Shown here: positions 26,138-45,448 of the stretch, one piece after another
Layout of the letters: each line of letters begins with the position of its first letter
Numbering within the stretch: position 1 is the first letter of the stretch
From: Thermosynechococcus sp. NK55a
Lineage (GTDB): Bacteria; Cyanobacteriota; Cyanobacteriia; Thermosynechococcales; Thermosynechococcaceae
Direction of reading: 5' to 3'
NCBI RefSeq assembly: GCF_000505665.1
Contig: NC_023033.1
Span: forward strand, 2,198,313 to 2,262,312
DNA length: 64,000 nucleotides
Notes under the pieces: model-generated
The model's input: only the letters and a program-made list of their open reading frames with translations
Told to the model about the DNA's origin: nothing
Databases searched by the model: none
Made by a program: the position numbers and the translations under genes

Positions 26138-27979
26138 ATGACTCTGTTTTGTCAAGTTGTTATGGAGCAGCAAATTGTTCATGCCACAACAGGGCGGGTG
26201 CGCTTTCGAGTGCCGCGTGTGCAACGGGATCCTGCCTATGGAAAGTTATTGGTGCAGTTGCTGGAGTCTTTGGCCATTGTTGAGCAGGTGCGTCTCAATC
26301 CGCAGGCGGCGACAGTGGTGGTGCAGTATCAGCCCCATTTGCTCGATGAGGCAGCAGTCTATGAACGTTTGAAGCAGTGTTTTGAACAGGCAATGGTGGC
26401 CGTGCCGCAGCCCTTTCCGGACAGTGCGGCTCCTGCGGAGGCGATCGCCCTTGAAGACTACGAAGCACAGGTAGAGGCGGATGCTCGCCTTGAAACCGAT
26501 TGGGAACGCTTGGGGCTGCCCTTGGTGGCCTTAGGGGTCTCCCTCCTCAGTGCGCCCTTGGAATTGCCCTTCGCGGTTGTTGGGGCTACGGTCTTGGCCA
26601 GTGCTTGGCCTTGGTTTCAGCGGGTGGGGCATCAGATGAGTCAGGGGCATCCCCCCAATGTAGATCTGCTCGATAGCCTTTGGATGGTACTGCATACCGT
26701 CAATGGCCAGTTCTTAGCGCCTGCATTGAAGACCACGTTGGCCGGGGCACGGGCAGATGTGCGCGATCGCCAGCGACGGCAACAGATGGATCGATATCCC
26801 AGTGTCTTGATGGCTCACTATGAACACCTGACGGTGGAACGTCAAGGTCACTGCCTCAGGATTGAAACTCAGGAGTTGCAAGCTGGGGATCTGCTGTGGT
26901 TGCAGCCCGGGGATGTTGTGCCTGCGGATGGCCGCGTTGTGGCTGGATTGGCGGAGGTGGAGCCTGCCCATTTTGAACCCTCCCGACAGGTGTGGATCTG
27001 CCGCCCCGGCGATGCCCTCTATGCAGGCTGTCAAATTCTCACGGGACAGGTTCAACTGTGGGTGATCCGCAGCGGTTGGCAAACGCGCCTTGGTTTGATG
27101 ACAGATCTGCTGCACACTGAACCGGTCTATGACAGTGCCCTTGCCCACCAACAGGGAGAATTTGCCCGCCATGCGGTGCTGCCAACGCTTGCCCTGAGTG
27201 GTGCCCTCTGGCTGACGACAGGTGCCTATGGACCAGCGATCGCCCCCCTACAGTTTGACTTTGGCAGCGGTGTGCAGCTGTCACTGCGGACGGTGATGCT
27301 CTCGGCACAGGTATTCGCGGTGCAACAGGGGGTGTATCTACCCACTGCCGGTACTTTAGAACAACTGGCGCAACTGGAGAGCTTGGTGATTGATGCTCGC
27401 GCCGGTCTTCCCCAGCCTCAACAGGCCCACATCCTGATTCAGCAATTGCGACAGCTTGGCCTTGATATCTATCTGCTTCAAGATCAAGGTAGGCCCCTTG
27501 AGGGGACCACAGAGGTCACGGGCGATCGCCTCCCTGATCTTCAGGCCTATCTGGTGGGTAAGCGGCGGCGGGTCGGCTGGATCAGCTTTGGTGAAACCTG
27601 TTCCTGTCCTGAACCCACATGGTTACCGATTCGCTGGCGGCCCCCTACCTTTGACCCCAATGCCAAAGTGGTTGTTCTTTTGGACGGCGACTGGTCTGCC
27701 CTTGGCCGTGGCATTGCCCTTGCCCGCGATGCCCTAGAGCGAACCTATCAAAATGTGGCCTTGATTGCTCTGCCAAATTTAGCGGTTACCTTTGGCGGCC
27801 TGTTTTTGGGCTTGCATCCTGTGGTCAATGTCGTCACCAACAACGCTACTGCCTTTATTGCTGAGTTTTGGCATGGAAACTCAACCCAGTTTCGTACCGC
27901 CCTATTGCCAAGCGTGTCAACGACCGTCCCCCTGCGACCGCTGCCCCTAGAATCCCCTCAACTGGCGGTGGCCCCATAG
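26138..27979 (+). CDS. P-type ATPase-like protein without catalytic motifs, with HMA-like N domain
   Basis: A 613-aa protein, or 605 aa from ATG 26162 (MEQQIVHATTGRVRFRV). The N-terminal 70 residues resemble a heavy-metal-associated fold without its CxxC. The actuator region is recognisable (GDLLWLQPGDVVPADGRVV), but TGES is replaced by FEPS. The phosphorylation segment reads IDARAG (Asp419) in place of DKTGT. No CPC/SPC motif is seen in the following membrane part, and the nucleotide-binding domain is reduced. The C-terminal hinge keeps only LDGDWSALGRGIALARDA and terminal helices. The frame is intact over 1.8 kb, so this looks like a maintained pseudoenzyme of the P1B type, not a broken gene. 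Confidence 0.8.
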   Translation: MTLFCQVVMEQQIVHATTGRVRFRVPRVQRDPAYGKLLVQLLESLAIVEQVRLNPQAATVVVQYQPHLLDEAAVYERLKQCFEQAMVAVPQPFPDSAAPAEAIALEDYEAQVEADARLETDWERLGLPLVALGVSLLSAPLELPFAVVGATVLASAWPWFQRVGHQMSQGHPPNVDLLDSLWMVLHTVNGQFLAPALKTTLAGARADVRDRQRRQQMDRYPSVLMAHYEHLTVERQGHCLRIETQELQAGDLLWLQPGDVVPADGRVVAGLAEVEPAHFEPSRQVWICRPGDALYAGCQILTGQVQLWVIRSGWQTRLGLMTDLLHTEPVYDSALAHQQGEFARHAVLPTLALSGALWLTTGAYGPAIAPLQFDFGSGVQLSLRTVMLSAQVFAVQQGVYLPTAGTLEQLAQLESLVIDARAGLPQPQQAHILIQQLRQLGLDIYLLQDQGRPLEGTTEVTGDRLPDLQAYLVGKRRRVGWISFGETCSCPEPTWLPIRWRPPTFDPNAKVVVLLDGDWSALGRGIALARDALERTYQNVALIALPNLAVTFGGLFLGLHPVVNVVTNNATAFIAEFWHGNSTQFRTALLPSVSTTVPLRPLPLESPQLAVAP

Positions 27980-34786: not shown

Positions 34787-35907
34787 ACATGGGGTTTTGG
34801 CAAGGCAGGCGGGTGTTGGTCACCGGCCACACTGGCTTTAAGGGCAGCTGGCTCTCCCTATGGCTGCGCGAGCTGGGTGCCACACTATGCGGTCTGGCCT
34901 TGCCGCCTGCCACGCAGCCATCCCTCTTCGAACTGACCGGCATCGGCGAAGATATCGAAGGCCATATGGTCGATATCCGGGACGCAAATGCTGTAGCGAC
35001 TCGGATTCGGTGCTTTGCACCCGAGATCGTTTTCCATTTGGCTGCCCAGCCGCTGGTGCGGGCCAGTTACATTGACCCCTTGGGCACCTTCTCCAGCAAT
35101 ATCATGGGCACCGCCCATGTGCTGGATGCCCTGCGTGGTCTGGATTCGGTGCGTGTTGCCGTCATGGTGACCACCGATAAGGTTTATGAAAATCGCGAGT
35201 GGCCCTACCCCTACCGTGAAACGGATCCCCTGGGCGGCCATGACCCCTACAGTGCGAGCAAGGCCGCCAGCGAGATCGTGGTCGCCAGTTATCGCGATGC
35301 CTTTTTGCGCGCCCAAGGTGTGGCCATTGCCACGGCCCGCGCCGGCAACGTCATCGGCGGTGGTGACTGGTCTGAGGATCGGCTCATTCCGGACGCGATG
35401 CGCGCGTGGTTTTCTGGAAAGCCCCTTCTGGTACGTCGGCCCAATGCCATCCGCCCGTGGCAGCATGTGCTCGAGCCCCTGTATGGCTATCTCGTCCTGG
35501 CCGAAAAGCTCTGGGCGCAGCCGGAACTGGCCGGGGCCTACAATTTCGGTCCGGATCCCATCGAGGCGGCGACGGTCCGGGAAGTGGTCGAGCAGGCTAG
35601 GCAGGTTTTCGGTGCGGCAGAAGTGCAATACGCCAGCTCGCCGGAAGGGCCCCATGAGGCCCACTGGCTGGCGCTGGAGACCGCCAAGGCGCGCACGCTC
35701 CTCAAGGTCAAGCCCAGGTGGAACCTCACTCAGGCCATCGAGCGGACCGTGTCGTGGTACAAGGCCGTGAGTCGGGGGGCGATGCGCGTGCCTTGTGCCT
35801 TGCCGCCATCGCCGACTATCAGCATGACGCCAGTCAAGCCGGCGAGGGCGCGCCATGAACCACTTGACCATCACGTCCACGCCCCTGGCAGGGCTTGCGA
35901 TCCTTGA
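34783..35907 (+). CDS. rfbG: CDP-glucose 4,6-dehydratase
   Basis: Converts CDP-glucose to CDP-4-dehydro-6-deoxyglucose. A 374-aa extended SDR: NAD-binding [10 protein letters not shown] near the start, catalytic YSASK, and TTDKVYEN in place of the TTDEVYG of TDP-glucose dehydratases, a CDP-family mark. The start is ATG 34783, overlapping the rfbF stop. The last 17 codons overlap the next gene's start. Confidence 0.94.
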
Positions 35908-36415
35908 GCGTCATACCCTTGGGGATGCGCGCGGCTACTTTGAGCGGCTTTTCTGCAGCGATGAGCTGCAAGCCTTGCTGGCCGGCCGAACCATCGTGCA
36001 AATCAACCACAGCTTCACAGCCCAGGCAGGGACCGTGCGCGGGCTTCACTTCCAGTATCCCCCCCATGCCGAGATGAAATTTGTGCACTGCCTGCGCGGG
36101 GAAGTCTTTGATGTGGCCGTGGACCTTCGGAAAGGCTCGCCCACGCTTCTTCAGTGGCATGCAGAGGTGCTCAGCGCCGATAACCACAAAACCCTCGTGA
36201 TCCCCGAAGGGTTTGCCCACGGCTTTCAGACCCTGACCAATGATTGTGAAATGCTCTACCTCCATACCGCGCCCTACCATCCCGAGGCTGAAGGCGGTCT
36301 TCATCCGCTTGACCCTCGCCTGAATGTCGGCTGGCCGCTACCGGTTTCGCAGCTCTCCGAGCGCGATGCCAGCCACCCATGGATCAATGACGCCTTCGAG
36401 GGGCTTGTCCTATGA
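35855..36415 (+). CDS. dTDP-4-dehydrorhamnose 3,5-epimerase-family protein
   Basis: A 186-aa RmlC-like cupin. The catalytic His is in VRGLHFQYPPHAE, and a basic/aromatic site is in IPEGFAHGFQTL, with Tyr in CEMLYLHTAPYH. In this operon the substrate should be a CDP-4-keto-6-deoxyhexose, epimerised at C3 and/or C5. It overlaps rfbG by 53 bases and the following methyltransferase by four (ATGA). Confidence 0.9.
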   Translation: MNHLTITSTPLAGLAILERHTLGDARGYFERLFCSDELQALLAGRTIVQINHSFTAQAGTVRGLHFQYPPHAEMKFVHCLRGEVFDVAVDLRKGSPTLLQWHAEVLSADNHKTLVIPEGFAHGFQTLTNDCEMLYLHTAPYHPEAEGGLHPLDPRLNVGWPLPVSQLSERDASHPWINDAFEGLVL

Positions 36416-37653
36416 ACTGCCGTCACTGTAACGCACCCCTTGAGCTTGTACTCATCGACCTGGGGACGCAGCCCCCATCCAATGCTTATCTTGGCGCCGA
36501 AGCCCTGCGCATGCCGGAGCGCTGGTATCCGCTGCGTGTACTCGTCTGCGAGCAATGCTGGCTTGTGCAGACAGAAGACTTTGCGCAACCTCAAGAGCTC
36601 TTCAGCCCCGATTACGCCTATTTCAGCGGCTACTCCTCCTCATGGCTTGCCCATTGCGCGCGCTTCGTGGGGGAGGCCGTCCAGCGTTTCGGGCTGGGCC
36701 CCGACAGCCATGTGGTGGAAGTGGCCGCCAATGATGGCTACCTGCTCCAGTTCGTTCAGGCGCGGGGCATTCCCTGCCTGGGCATCGAACCCACTGCCAG
36801 CACTGCAGCCGCCGCACGGGCCAAGGGCATTGCCATCGTCCAGGATTTCTTCGGCGTCCGGCTGGCGCAGCTGCTCGCCAGTGAGGGCAGACAGGCCGAT
36901 CTCATGATTGCCAACAATGTGCTGGCCCACGTGCCCGACATCAACGATTTTGTTGCCGGCTTTACCATTTTGCTCAAGCCCCAGGGTGTCGCCACCTTCG
37001 AGTTTCCACACCTTCTGCGGCTCTTGGCCGAAGTGCAATTCGACACGATCTATCATGAACATTTCTCCTACCTCTCGCTGACCGCGGTGGAGCATATTTT
37101 CACTCGCGCCGGCCTGACGATATTCGATGTCGAAGCCCTGCCCACCCACGGCGGCAGTCTGCGCATCTATGCCCAGCGCGCCGATACAGGTAAACAGCCC
37201 ATCAGTGACCGTGTCGATGCCCTGCTTGAGGAAGAGCGCGCCGCCGGGCTGACCCAGCGTGCGACCTACAGCGGCTTTCAGGAACGTGCGGAGCGCATCA
37301 AGGACGACTTCCTTGAGTTCTTGCTCACCGCCAAACGGGAAGGTAAACGCGTCGCTGCCTATGGCGCGGCGGCCAAGGGCAACACGCTTCTCAACTTTGC
37401 TGGCGTCAAGCCCGATCTCCTGCCGTTTGTGGTGGACAAAAACCCGGCCAAACAGGGCAAATATCTCCCGGGAAGCCGCATTCCCATCGTCAGTGAAGAA
37501 AAACTCAAGGAAACCCAACCCGACTATATCGTGATCCTGCCCTGGAACTTGCGCGAGGAGATCATGGCGCAGCTGGCTTATGTGCAGGCATGGGGGGGAC
37601 AATTCGTCATCGCTGTGCCAGCGCTTGAAGTGTCAAAGGGTAAGATGACATGA
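36412..37653 (+). CDS. Sugar C-methyltransferase (TylCIII/NovU-like)
   Basis: A 413-aa protein with the three-part layout of sugar C-methyltransferases: an N-terminal zinc-binding domain (CRHCN and CEQCW cysteines), a central SAM-binding Rossmann domain (VVEVAANDGYLLQF), and a C-terminal domain with AAYGAAAKGNTLLNF and a Gly-rich end. The conserved HEHFSYLSL is typical. It should methylate C3 of a nucleotide-activated 4-keto-deoxysugar. It overlaps both neighbours by ATGA. Confidence 0.9.
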   Translation: MNCRHCNAPLELVLIDLGTQPPSNAYLGAEALRMPERWYPLRVLVCEQCWLVQTEDFAQPQELFSPDYAYFSGYSSSWLAHCARFVGEAVQRFGLGPDSHVVEVAANDGYLLQFVQARGIPCLGIEPTASTAAAARAKGIAIVQDFFGVRLAQLLASEGRQADLMIANNVLAHVPDINDFVAGFTILLKPQGVATFEFPHLLRLLAEVQFDTIYHEHFSYLSLTAVEHIFTRAGLTIFDVEALPTHGGSLRIYAQRADTGKQPISDRVDALLEEERAAGLTQRATYSGFQERAERIKDDFLEFLLTAKREGKRVAAYGAAAKGNTLLNFAGVKPDLLPFVVDKNPAKQGKYLPGSRIPIVSEEKLKETQPDYIVILPWNLREEIMAQLAYVQAWGGQFVIAVPALEVSKGKMT

Positions 37654-43473: not shown

Positions 43474-44607
43474 GTGTTTCGTGTTTTGTTTGTCCCCACC
43501 GGCCTTTCCACCGGCGGCGCGGAAAGACAGCTCGCGCAGCTGCTTGCACATCTGCATGGTACGAAGCTCGAGGCTGCCGTGGTGTCGCTGGGGCCGCGTG
43601 GGGCGGTGTCTGGGCAGATCGAAGCCCTCGGCGTTCCCGTGTGGCATCTGGGGCTCAGCTACAATCCCCTCAATTTGCCTTATGCGGCGGCCCGTTTGGC
43701 GATGATCGCCCGCCGCTTCCGGCCCCATGTCATCCAGGGCTGGATGTATCACGGCAATCTTGCCGCAAGCCTGGTCGGCCGCGTGCTGGGCCGGCCGGTG
43801 ATCTGGGGCGTGCGGCAATCCCTCTACGATCTCGCCAGGGAAAAACCGCTCACCAGGCAGGTCATTCGGCTGTTGGCGCGCTGGTCGCAGAGTCCGGCGG
43901 CCATCGTATATAACGCCCACCTCGCCCGCGCTCAGCACGAGCACTTTGGTTTTGCGCAGGAGCGCGGGTGTGTGATCGGTAACGCTTTCGATGGGCGGCA
44001 GTATCGGCCAGACCCGCAAGCGCGCCGCAGCGTGCGGGCAGAACTTGGCATTTCTCAGGATGCACCGCTCATCGGGCTCATTGCCCGCTACCACCCCATG
44101 AAGGGGCACGACATCTTTCTCTCCGCGGCACAACACCTTGCCGTTCGCCGCCCGGACGTGCATTTTCTACTCGCCGGGCGAGACGTGACGCCGGCCCACC
44201 CGCTCTTTGCTCCGCATGGGCGGAGCGGGCCGCTGGCCGGACGGCTGCATCTTCTGGGCGAACGCGCCGATATCCCGCGGCTAACCGCCGCACTGGACAT
44301 CGCTTCTTCTTCTTCTTCTTGGGGGGAGGCATTTTCCAACGCGCTCGCCGAGGCGCTGCTGTGTGGCGTGCCGGTGGTGGCGACGGATGTGGGGGACGCC
44401 AGAATCATCGTCGGAGATGCCGGGATCGTGGTGCCGCCCGGCGACGCCCGTGCGCTGGCCAGCGGGTGGCAGGCCCTGCTGGATCGGGGGCCCGAAGCGC
44501 GCCAAGCCATGGGATGGGCCGGACGGGAACGGTTGCTGGCGCAGCACTCGGTTGAGGCAGTGGCCCAAGCGTATGTTCAACTCTACGAAAGGATCCAGGA
44601 CCGATGA
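43474..44607 (+). CDS. Family 4 glycosyltransferase (GT-B fold)
   Basis: A 377-aa retaining glycosyltransferase. It starts at GTG 43474, nine bases after the previous gene. The N-terminal loop TGLSTGGAERQL and the C-terminal donor site WGEAFSNALAEALLCGVPVVATDVGD (EX7E-type acids) are intact. Within it, five TCT codons in a row (near 44300) encode a serine run where the family usually has two or three. Its stop overlaps the decayed methyltransferase start (ATGA). Confidence 0.9.
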   Translation: MFRVLFVPTGLSTGGAERQLAQLLAHLHGTKLEAAVVSLGPRGAVSGQIEALGVPVWHLGLSYNPLNLPYAAARLAMIARRFRPHVIQGWMYHGNLAASLVGRVLGRPVIWGVRQSLYDLAREKPLTRQVIRLLARWSQSPAAIVYNAHLARAQHEHFGFAQERGCVIGNAFDGRQYRPDPQARRSVRAELGISQDAPLIGLIARYHPMKGHDIFLSAAQHLAVRRPDVHFLLAGRDVTPAHPLFAPHGRSGPLAGRLHLLGERADIPRLTAALDIASSSSSWGEAFSNALAEALLCGVPVVATDVGDARIIVGDAGIVVPPGDARALASGWQALLDRGPEARQAMGWAGRERLLAQHSVEAVAQAYVQLYERIQDR

Positions 44608-45448
44608 ACCAAGACTTGACACGGGCTGAGACGCACTTCGCCTTCGGGCGCAACTGGGCGGAGTATGCGGCGAAGATCACCGAGGCCGAAGTGCGGTAGG
44701 CTGTAGCTGGCCTTCGCGGCTTCTTGGCGGCGAGCGGCTCGATGGCAAGCGCTTTCTCGATATCGGAAGCGGCTCGGGTCTGCACAGTCTCGCGGCCCTT
44801 CGCCTCGGGGCGCGGCAGGTGGTGGCGATAGACATCGACGCCGATTCCGTGGCGACCACGCAGGCGGTGTTACAGCGCTTCGCGCCGGATGGGCCGTGGA
44901 AAGTGGAAGCCAAAAGTGTCTTCGAGCTGGATCCGAGGGAATCCGGTGTTTTTGAGATCGTGTATTCCTGGGGTGTGCTGCATCATACCGGCGACATGTT
45001 CTTTGCCTTGCGTTCGGCGGCAGCCATGGTCGCGCCGGAAGGCTTCTTCGTGTTCGCCCTTTACCGGCGCATATGGATGGACTGGTTCTGGCGCTGGGAG
45101 AAGCGCTGGTATGCGCAGGCATCGCATTCAGCCCAGGCGCGGGCGCGATGGGTGTATGTGACCCTTTATCGCCTGGGCCTACGGCTGACCGGCCGACGGT
45201 TCGAGGATTATGTGACTAACTATCGCAGCAAGCGTGGCATGAGTTTCGAGCACGATGTGCACGACTGGCTGGGCGGCTGGCCTTATGAGTCGATCTCGTC
45301 TCGAGAGGTGCAAGACGCGATGAAAGCGCTTGGCTTCTCAGCGGTCAAGCAATTCGCACGCAAAGGGCGCTTTTTGGGGAAAGACCCTGGGTTCTTCGGT
45401 TCTGGCTGCGATGAATATGTGTACCGGAAAGAAGCATGTGCGGACTGA
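44604..45448 (+). pseudogene. Class I SAM methyltransferase with in-frame stop and frameshift
   Basis: ATG 44604 overlaps the GT4 stop. The first 31 codons (ending ITEAEVR) are stopped by TAG 44697-44699, continue in the same frame as AVAGLR, and then the family sequence moves to another frame near 44715-44722: RLLGGERLDGKRFLDIGSGSG, the SAM-binding motif. The rest is open to TGA at 45446-45448. The second part alone (from ATG 44819) lacks the SAM motif, so an active enzyme is unlikely. Confidence 0.85.

Follow-up and report, generated by a model that had tools for sequence, protein, structure and literature searches.

A conserved non-catalytic P-type ATPase related to the HMA_2 ATPases of cyanobacteria, encoded in Thermosynechococcus sp. 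NK55a

Gene and domain architecture

The window analyzed here is a stretch of 64,000 nucleotides from the 2.52 Mb genome of Thermosynechococcus sp. NK55a (G000:C1:2198313-2262312). On its forward strand, at 26138-27979, it carries a gene for a P-type ATPase homologue of 613 aa (hereafter the window protein), the frame of which contains no internal stop. An earlier prediction made from the letters of the stretch had described this open frame, and its coordinates and absence of stops were confirmed. The second ATG, at 26162, is probably the true start (605 aa), since in the G005 orthologue an in-frame TAA separates it from the first, at 26138. The features of the gene are collected in Table 1.

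Table 1. Features of the P-type ATPase homologue in the window
Feature	Position	Strand	Basis and remarks
P-type pseudo-ATPase ORF	26138..27979	+	613 aa listed; probable start ATG 26162 (605 aa)
N-terminal HMA_2 domain, no CxxC	26171..26365	+	Pfam PF19991; residues 4-80 modeled as strands and helices
First membrane helices, clade motif LDSLW..LHT..G.F.APALKT	26513..26794	+	Alignment; model helices 118-211
Actuator (A) domain, E1-E2_ATPase, running into M3	26825..27235	+	Pfam PF00122; A fold matches CopA A domain 2hc8, Z 13.5, rmsd 2.0
FEPS in place of the TGES dephosphorylation loop	26972..26983	+	Alignment
M4 motif FDFGSG where CPC would be	27254..27271	+	Asp 366 of 605, in 30/30 classified rows
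P-domain core without N-domain insertion	27347..27679	+	Model; aligned to CopA P/N-domain structure 3a1d, Z 12.6, rmsd 3.0, 136 residues
DARAG at the DKTGT position	27392..27406	+	Alignment
M5-M6 with PN and NNATAF motifs	27695..27874	+	Alignment and model

Pfam detected E1-E2_ATPase at residues 230-366 of the window protein (61.8 bits, cut-off 28.1) and HMA_2 (PF19991) at residues 12-76 (33.2 bits, gathering cut-off 30), and no match to a Hydrolase/HAD domain was obtained up to E = 10. Both full-length HMA_2 paralogues of the same genome (C1:288432 and C1:1606640) have the Pfam Hydrolase domain (93.9 and 71.4 bits) and scored 486 and 410 bits with NCBIfam TIGR01525 (heavy metal translocating P-type ATPase), for which the window protein reached 63.3 bits, below the cut-off of 346.25. 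The HMA_2 domain may resemble the CoBaHMA domain, in which conserved basic residues stand where other HMA domains have a CxxC metal site; H7, R12, R14, and R44 were invariant across 15 aligned rows. The prediction had suggested a metal sensor or chaperone; since the protein has no CxxC, the usual soft-metal kind of HMA chaperone or sensor is not supported and was rejected. A CSC at residues 488-490 is not found in the G012 and G019 rows.

The AlphaFold model, built from nine sequences (pLDDT 75.4, pTM 0.66), comprised the N-terminal domain (residues 4-80), the membrane helices, the A-domain strands (223-303), the alternating P core (407-506), and M5-M6. Its top solved match by Z was the copper P1B ATPase 7r0g (Z 24.4, rmsd 5.0, 458 residues, 15% identity), and the A domain and P core each matched the corresponding CopA structures (Table 1). 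The P1B architecture claimed earlier was thus recovered, with an M1-M6 core, A domain, and P core in P1B order.

Loss of the catalytic apparatus

The motif alignment contained 32 rows, of which 18 were classed as pseudo-ATPases and 12 as active HMA_2 ATPases. The remaining two, P_RL11 (probably a frameshifted ATPase, L082) and Q_G377 (ORF ending at 412 aa, L098), were left out of the counts and the tree, and P_G287, a 280-aa fragment at a contig edge without an A domain, was counted as pseudo and kept out of the tree. The genus of the window was represented in the alignment and tree by G000 and G010 only, its other members being assigned by 74-96% identity.

Orthologues with intact DKTGT, which would have marked the window gene as a single decayed copy, were looked for; the motif was present in none of the 18 pseudo rows and in all 12 active rows. 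The HP motif of the N domain was likewise missing from every pseudo row and present in 11/12 active rows, and the GDGxND hinge was found in 0/18 and 9/12 rows, respectively, the active exceptions being GEGFND, GEGIND, and GDSISD. The predicted changes at TGES and DKTGT were borne out by the alignment: the window protein has FEPS for TGES, IDARAG for FDKTGT (the Asp itself is kept), and nothing matching GDGxND. The N domain, which had been taken to be shortened, was indeed altered but is absent altogether, being a gap in 18/18 pseudo rows; about 28 residues separate the DKTGT and TGD positions in the window protein versus about 150 in paralogue a, so that only the bare P-domain core is left.

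The residues that replaced the motifs vary by lineage (FEPS, FRPS, LGEF, and QGQT; DARAG, DLSSP, and DQRGL). Without the KTGT, the Asp of DKTGT remains in 11 of the 14 pseudo rows other than the short forms described below, and TGE is kept in two pseudo rows, G135 (TGEN) and a Chroococcidiopsidaceae metagenome-assembled genome (MAG; TGES). Since the latter is the first branch of the main pseudo clade, loss of the motor appears to have preceded decay of the A-domain loop.

The M4 Asp of LDFG(S/T)G was present in all 30 classified rows (18/18 pseudo), and CPC in none. The absence of CPC noted in the prediction was therefore correct as an observation, but it is no evidence of inactivity: all 12 aligned DKTGT-bearing HMA_2 ATPases lack CPC as well and have LDFG(S/T)G there, so the missing CPC is an ancestral trait of the family and carries no information on decay.

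None of the classified members retains the phosphorylation site, N domain, or hinge, and the TGES loop is missing from almost all of them. The window protein falls outside the catalytic P1B ATPases, lacking all five features tested, though it shares their fold. From the established biochemistry of P-type ATPases, a P-type cycle would be impossible without the N domain, phosphorylation motif, and hinge. Pseudoenzyme status is firm, and the protein belongs among the pseudo-ATPases, being a conserved P-type ATPase without catalysis and a relative of the cyanobacterial HMA_2 ATPases.

Among the active HMA_2 ATPases, a second type was seen at L032:4593-6908 and L033:17688-19982, with DKTGT and TGES kept and GEGxND in place of GDGxND. 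This change falls at what we take to be the Mg-coordinating Asp.

Selection on the gene

Pairwise dN/dS within the genus was 0.10-0.20 for the whole gene. M3-M4 was the most conserved region (0.01-0.13), followed by values of 0.05-0.13 for the HMA_2 domain, 0.08-0.28 for the A and P remnants, and up to 0.44 for the linker. As a control, the same five genomes gave 0.12-0.19 for the pseudo gene, 0.07-0.10 for active paralogue a, and 0.10-0.21 for active paralogue b. Purifying selection is thus measurable, as the prediction had supposed from the open frame, and it is strong on the HMA_2 domain and M3-M4. The P remnant evolved faster than the P and N domains of both active paralogues in 6/6 pairs, and the A remnant faster than the A domain of paralogue a in 6/6 pairs and of paralogue b in 5/6. 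M3-M4 was not faster than in the active paralogues (0.01-0.07 vs. 0.02-0.13) and is therefore constrained about as tightly as in the proteins that keep the motor.

Distribution and phylogeny

The gene was present in 10 of 11 genomes of the genus, the source genome included. Eight others had full-length orthologues with 74-96% identity, and the ninth, in the fragmented MAG assembly G009, was split by a frameshift. It was not found in the same-genus genome G006, which is 90% complete. Across the class, the pseudo form was found in 25/388 genomes, namely the ten of the genus together with G012, G016, G019, G035, G042, G044, G062, G088, G127, G135, G197, G218, G221, G270, and G287; G009 and G127 were counted from match extent and open frame, and neither is in the motif alignment. 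The class search scored up to three candidates per genome for A1 and up to seven for A3, and discordant genomes were re-searched with all candidates scored. All 36 genomes of family f25 were already inside the sample. A plasmid search returned 10 records with distant matches only, none spanning 80% of the query, and no relative of the window protein was found in viral contigs.

The tree comprised 29 rows. Of its 17 pseudo rows, 13 formed one clade (support 100/99) apart from the active rows, while a single origin for all 17 was supported at just 73/86. The main clade splits with starred support into a stand-alone subclade (the window genus, G012, G019, G035, and G042) and a second subclade (G016, G135, G218, G197, G221, and Phormidium LEGE 05292) whose members mostly lie within gene clusters. 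RpoB places G016 with the family of the window, yet its pseudo gene belongs to the second subclade; because of this disagreement, transfer or old paralogy is likely for that gene.

Short forms (L038:6875-8233 and L039:7021-8250, also L099 and L100), of 452 aa in G042 and 409 aa in the Gloeomargaritales, have lost the A domain together with some of the P core and keep the HMA_2 and membrane parts. In the Gloeomargaritales, the short-form gene comes after a same-strand upstream gene (597 aa, proS-like by reading), which it slightly overlaps.

The open frame is far beyond chance. A decaying pseudogene, open by accident, could account for the drift of catalytic residues among lineages, the frameshifted copy of G009, and the missing copy of G006. 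This explanation is scarcely credible and was rejected; it is opposed by the dN/dS, close to that of the second active paralogue, by the supported clade, which spans several families with motifs in common, and by the control against the active paralogues.

Gene neighborhoods

No conserved operon was seen in the window genus (G000, G001, G003, and G010 examined). A peroxiredoxin-glutaredoxin-like gene (named by reading) on the opposite strand adjoins the pseudo gene in G000, G001, and G003, and G010 has other neighbors. The prediction had offered a structural partner of an active ATPase as one possible role, and the neighborhoods bear this out in part: in two genomes, an active HMA_2 ATPase gene immediately precedes the pseudo gene on the same strand, overlapping it in Phormidium LEGE 05292 and ending 120 bp away in the Chroococcidiopsidaceae MAG, and in G016, G135, G197, and G218 the pseudo gene is 5-17 kb from two such genes each, but it is not beside one in the window genus. 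The contigs of G221 and G287 were too short to judge ATPase neighbors.

Genes for cax Ca2+/H+ exchangers scoring above the NCBIfam cut-off were located near the pseudo gene at 0.6 kb (G197), 1.5 kb (G218), and about 20 kb (G135), and P2-type Ca-ATPase-like pumps, under the equivalog cut-offs, were found in the G016 and G135 regions. The clustered regions further hold an Mntp-family (G218) or YtaF-type (G016) protein, HMA_2-only proteins, and ArsA_HSP20 ATPases. In G016, the pseudo gene adjoins a gene (L033:7132-8202) for an HMA_2 protein of 356 aa that has only one glycine zipper and may be related to calcyanin, with a diminished zipper region.

ArsA_ATPase and ArsA_HSP20 proteins are encoded within 5 kb of the pseudo gene in G016, G135, G197, G218, and G221, directly upstream on the same strand in G221 (38 bp) and G016 (176 bp), which would fit a motor swap in which a neighboring soluble ArsA-type ATPase energizes the membrane domain. 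Such a swap is very improbable. ArsA_HSP20 matches occurred in 44/44 cyanobacterial genomes searched, with or without the pseudo gene, and their presence is therefore uninformative as such; G000 and G013, the latter without the pseudo gene, each had two matches with ArsA-length frames, none of them near the window gene.

Elsewhere in the window, the blocks 35001-37000 and 44001-45000 have a G+C content of 0.61-0.65 versus 0.45-0.60 in the other 1-kb blocks.

Co-occurrence with calcyanin

Calcyanin (ccyA), as reportedly described by Benzerara and colleagues in 2022, carries three glycine zippers and is a marker of intracellular calcium carbonate. Two papers give ccyA as the gene linked to intracellular amorphous calcium carbonate in cyanobacteria (PMC11773610, PMC12836880). 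According to two others, all cultured species of the Thermosynechococcus clade that were examined form intracellular carbonates (PMC4085569), and T. elongatus BP-1, G. lithophora, and four others are listed as carbonate formers, with a thin envelope imaged around the inclusions (PMC6087745).

Reading of the G012, G019, G035, and G042 genomes gave a protein of 337-378 aa that starts with an HMA_2-like region and carries three glycine zippers, and Pfam confirmed PF19991 in that of G012. These proteins fit the description of calcyanin given above. The window protein itself showed no glycine-zipper repeats on reading. A zipper profile matched 32/388 genomes at E <= 1e-8, of which 26 were accepted as calcyanin-like and six with single-zipper or partial matches were set aside (G016, G117, G148, G218, G281, and G295). 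The accepted set includes fragments in G006 and G009 and weak matches in G331, G334, G360, and G363 (E 1e-12 to 1e-16), of which only those of G331 and G334 were read.

Calcyanin-like proteins were found in 20/25 genomes with the pseudo gene versus 6/363 others. Counted as both, pseudo gene only, calcyanin only, and neither, the 388 genomes gave 20, 5, 6, and 357; genera gave 8, 3, 4, and 145; families gave 6, 1, 2, and 34, with the total taken as 43, the highest family code seen; and the 70 genomes with an HMA_2 ATPase match at E <= 1e-40 gave 20, 5, 5, and 40. Fisher p-values for this co-occurrence treat related genomes as independent and thus make the link look stronger than it is. In an RpoB tree of 78 genomes made by a quick method (80 searched; G031 and G313 dropped for partial matches), the pseudo gene and calcyanin each need at least eight changes.

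This distribution also bears on whether the protein is a membrane tether or organizer of carbonate inclusions, the HMA_2 domain of which pairs with that of calcyanin and ties the inclusions or their envelope to the membrane. All 14 genomes assigned to the stand-alone subclade (ten of the window genus and four others) have a calcyanin-like match, in G009 a fragment only, and the HMA_2-like start of the proteins in G012, G019, G035, and G042, the carbonates of the Thermosynechococcus clade, and the imaged envelope would agree with a tether, as would the finding of an HMA_2 ATPase of some kind in 25/26 calcyanin genomes versus 45/362 others. Against it, three-zipper calcyanin occurred in one of the five genomes searched from the second, clustered subclade (G221); the calcyanin-like proteins of G088, G270, and G271 have no HMA_2-like start by eye; G271, G331, G334, G360, and G363 have calcyanin without the pseudo gene, which is therefore not required; and the co-occurrence was counted without control for relatedness. 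We consider a tether improbable.

Some calcyanin-like loci were unusual in themselves. That of G000 (G000:C1:1983466-1984101 and downstream, L118) lies in a 703-aa frame continuing into PIN-type membrane protein sequence (named by reading), a possible stop loss and fusion, given frames of 322-329 aa in eight other members of the genus. The locus G331:C1:260772-265288 brings together, within 5 kb, genes for an active HMA_2 ATPase, an ArsA_HSP20 ATPase, and a calcyanin-like protein, and an HMA_2 ATPase and a calcyanin-like gene share one short stretch in G334 (C84) and G271 (C178).

Proposed role

We tentatively propose, as plausible but short of probable, that the pseudo-ATPase is a partner, not itself a pump, with which active HMA_2 ATPases handle a hard divalent cation, Ca2+ being the likeliest. 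The loss of the catalytic motifs, the supported clade, the dN/dS, the retained P1B fold, the closeness to active HMA_2 ATPases and Ca2+ transporters in some relatives, and the co-occurrence with calcyanin would speak for such a role. The protein would sit in the membrane through M1-M6, its HMA_2 domain would dock to an anionic partner, lipid or protein, and it would tune or scaffold transport by the active HMA_2 ATPases without pumping itself. A hard divalent cation is favored because the Asp and Asn residues of M4-M6 would provide oxygen ligands, which fit such a cation better than Cu or Zn, and the neighboring genes of other genera would indicate Ca2+.

Several points weigh against this partnership. 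The Ca2+ assignment would draw on neighbors in other genera and on the Asp/Asn residues. No active HMA_2 ATPase was found within the 11-18 kb read around the gene in the window genus (G000, G001, G003, and G010) or in G012, G019, G035, G042, the Gloeomargaritales, and G270. P_G270 and the three short forms of the Gloeomargaritales have long branches, fall outside the supported clade, and may or may not share its single origin. The dN/dS of M5-M6 and the C-terminal tail reached 0.68, in the closest pair and with few changes. Re-searching confirmed no three-zipper calcyanin in the pseudo genomes G016, G135, G197, G218, and G287 (5/25 without) and no pseudo gene in the five calcyanin genomes named above (6/26 without in all). 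On the RpoB tree, three to four pairs lie on starred branches, of which about one is informative (concordant) and none discordant (p = 1); with so few independent pairs, the test cannot reach significance, and the link may stem from shared ancestry. Moreover, since HMA_2 ATPases are themselves enriched with calcyanin, the pseudo gene may track the HMA_2 ATPase family rather than calcyanin.

A passive conduit or ion-binding membrane protein, in which the membrane domain alone would either conduct a divalent cation along its gradient or act as a buffer for it, would accord with the strong conservation of M3-M4, the M4 Asp in every pseudo row, the short forms reduced to the HMA_2 and membrane parts, and the gene standing alone in the window genus. 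The A and P remnants, kept by selection, argue against a bare channel, which would need none, and we count it against a conduit that we know of no channel of P-type ATPase origin. A conduit therefore seems unlikely to us.

As for the origin of the partner proposed here, it is conceivable, though doubtful, that the motor was lost once in a cyanobacterial ancestor of the main 13-row clade, that the membrane half was then recruited to calcium handling and intracellular carbonate formation alongside calcyanin, and that some lineages were trimmed to HMA_2 and helices.

Comparison with known systems

Kinases and other enzymes have well-known conserved pseudo-versions. To our knowledge, no P-type ATPase family has dropped its whole nucleotide-binding domain yet stayed under selection. 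No description of an N-domain-deleted P-type pseudo-ATPase family was found in the open-licence papers searched, where the matches dealt with a lipid flippase and with P5A-ATPases. The calcyanin gene is the sole cyanobacterial marker gene named in the available parts of the literature (PMC11773610, PMC12836880). The gene described here offers a testable candidate for the loading of calcium into carbonate inclusions, encoding a membrane protein that tracks calcyanin, lies near Ca2+/H+ exchangers in some relatives, and occurs in a genus whose examined cultured members make inclusions.

The DKTGT-bearing HMA_2 ATPases of the same genomes (TIGR01525), 25-31% identical to the window protein, share with it the HMA_2 N-terminus, helix order, M4 motif of the LDFG(S/T)G type, and PN in M5, while they alone keep a TGES-type loop, DKTGT, and the N domain; three of them that were tested scored 410-486 bits. 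With the P1B copper and zinc ATPases (7r0g CopA, 4umv ZntA-type, and 8q74 HMA4), the overall fold is common apart from the N domain, and in comparison to them the window protein lacks CPC, the catalytic motifs, the N domain, and CxxC. Calcyanin is co-distributed with the window protein, and some calcyanin-like proteins share its HMA_2 N-terminal domain, but the three glycine zippers of calcyanin are absent from the window protein, and calcyanin is without P-type ATPase parts. A precedent for a non-pumping partner that assists a P-type ATPase is provided by the CtpC-PacL1 zinc platforms (PMC9374683). According to the abstract, PacL1 combines a transmembrane domain with Gln/Ala repeats and a metal-binding motif, and nothing in it marks PacL1 as a P-type homologue.

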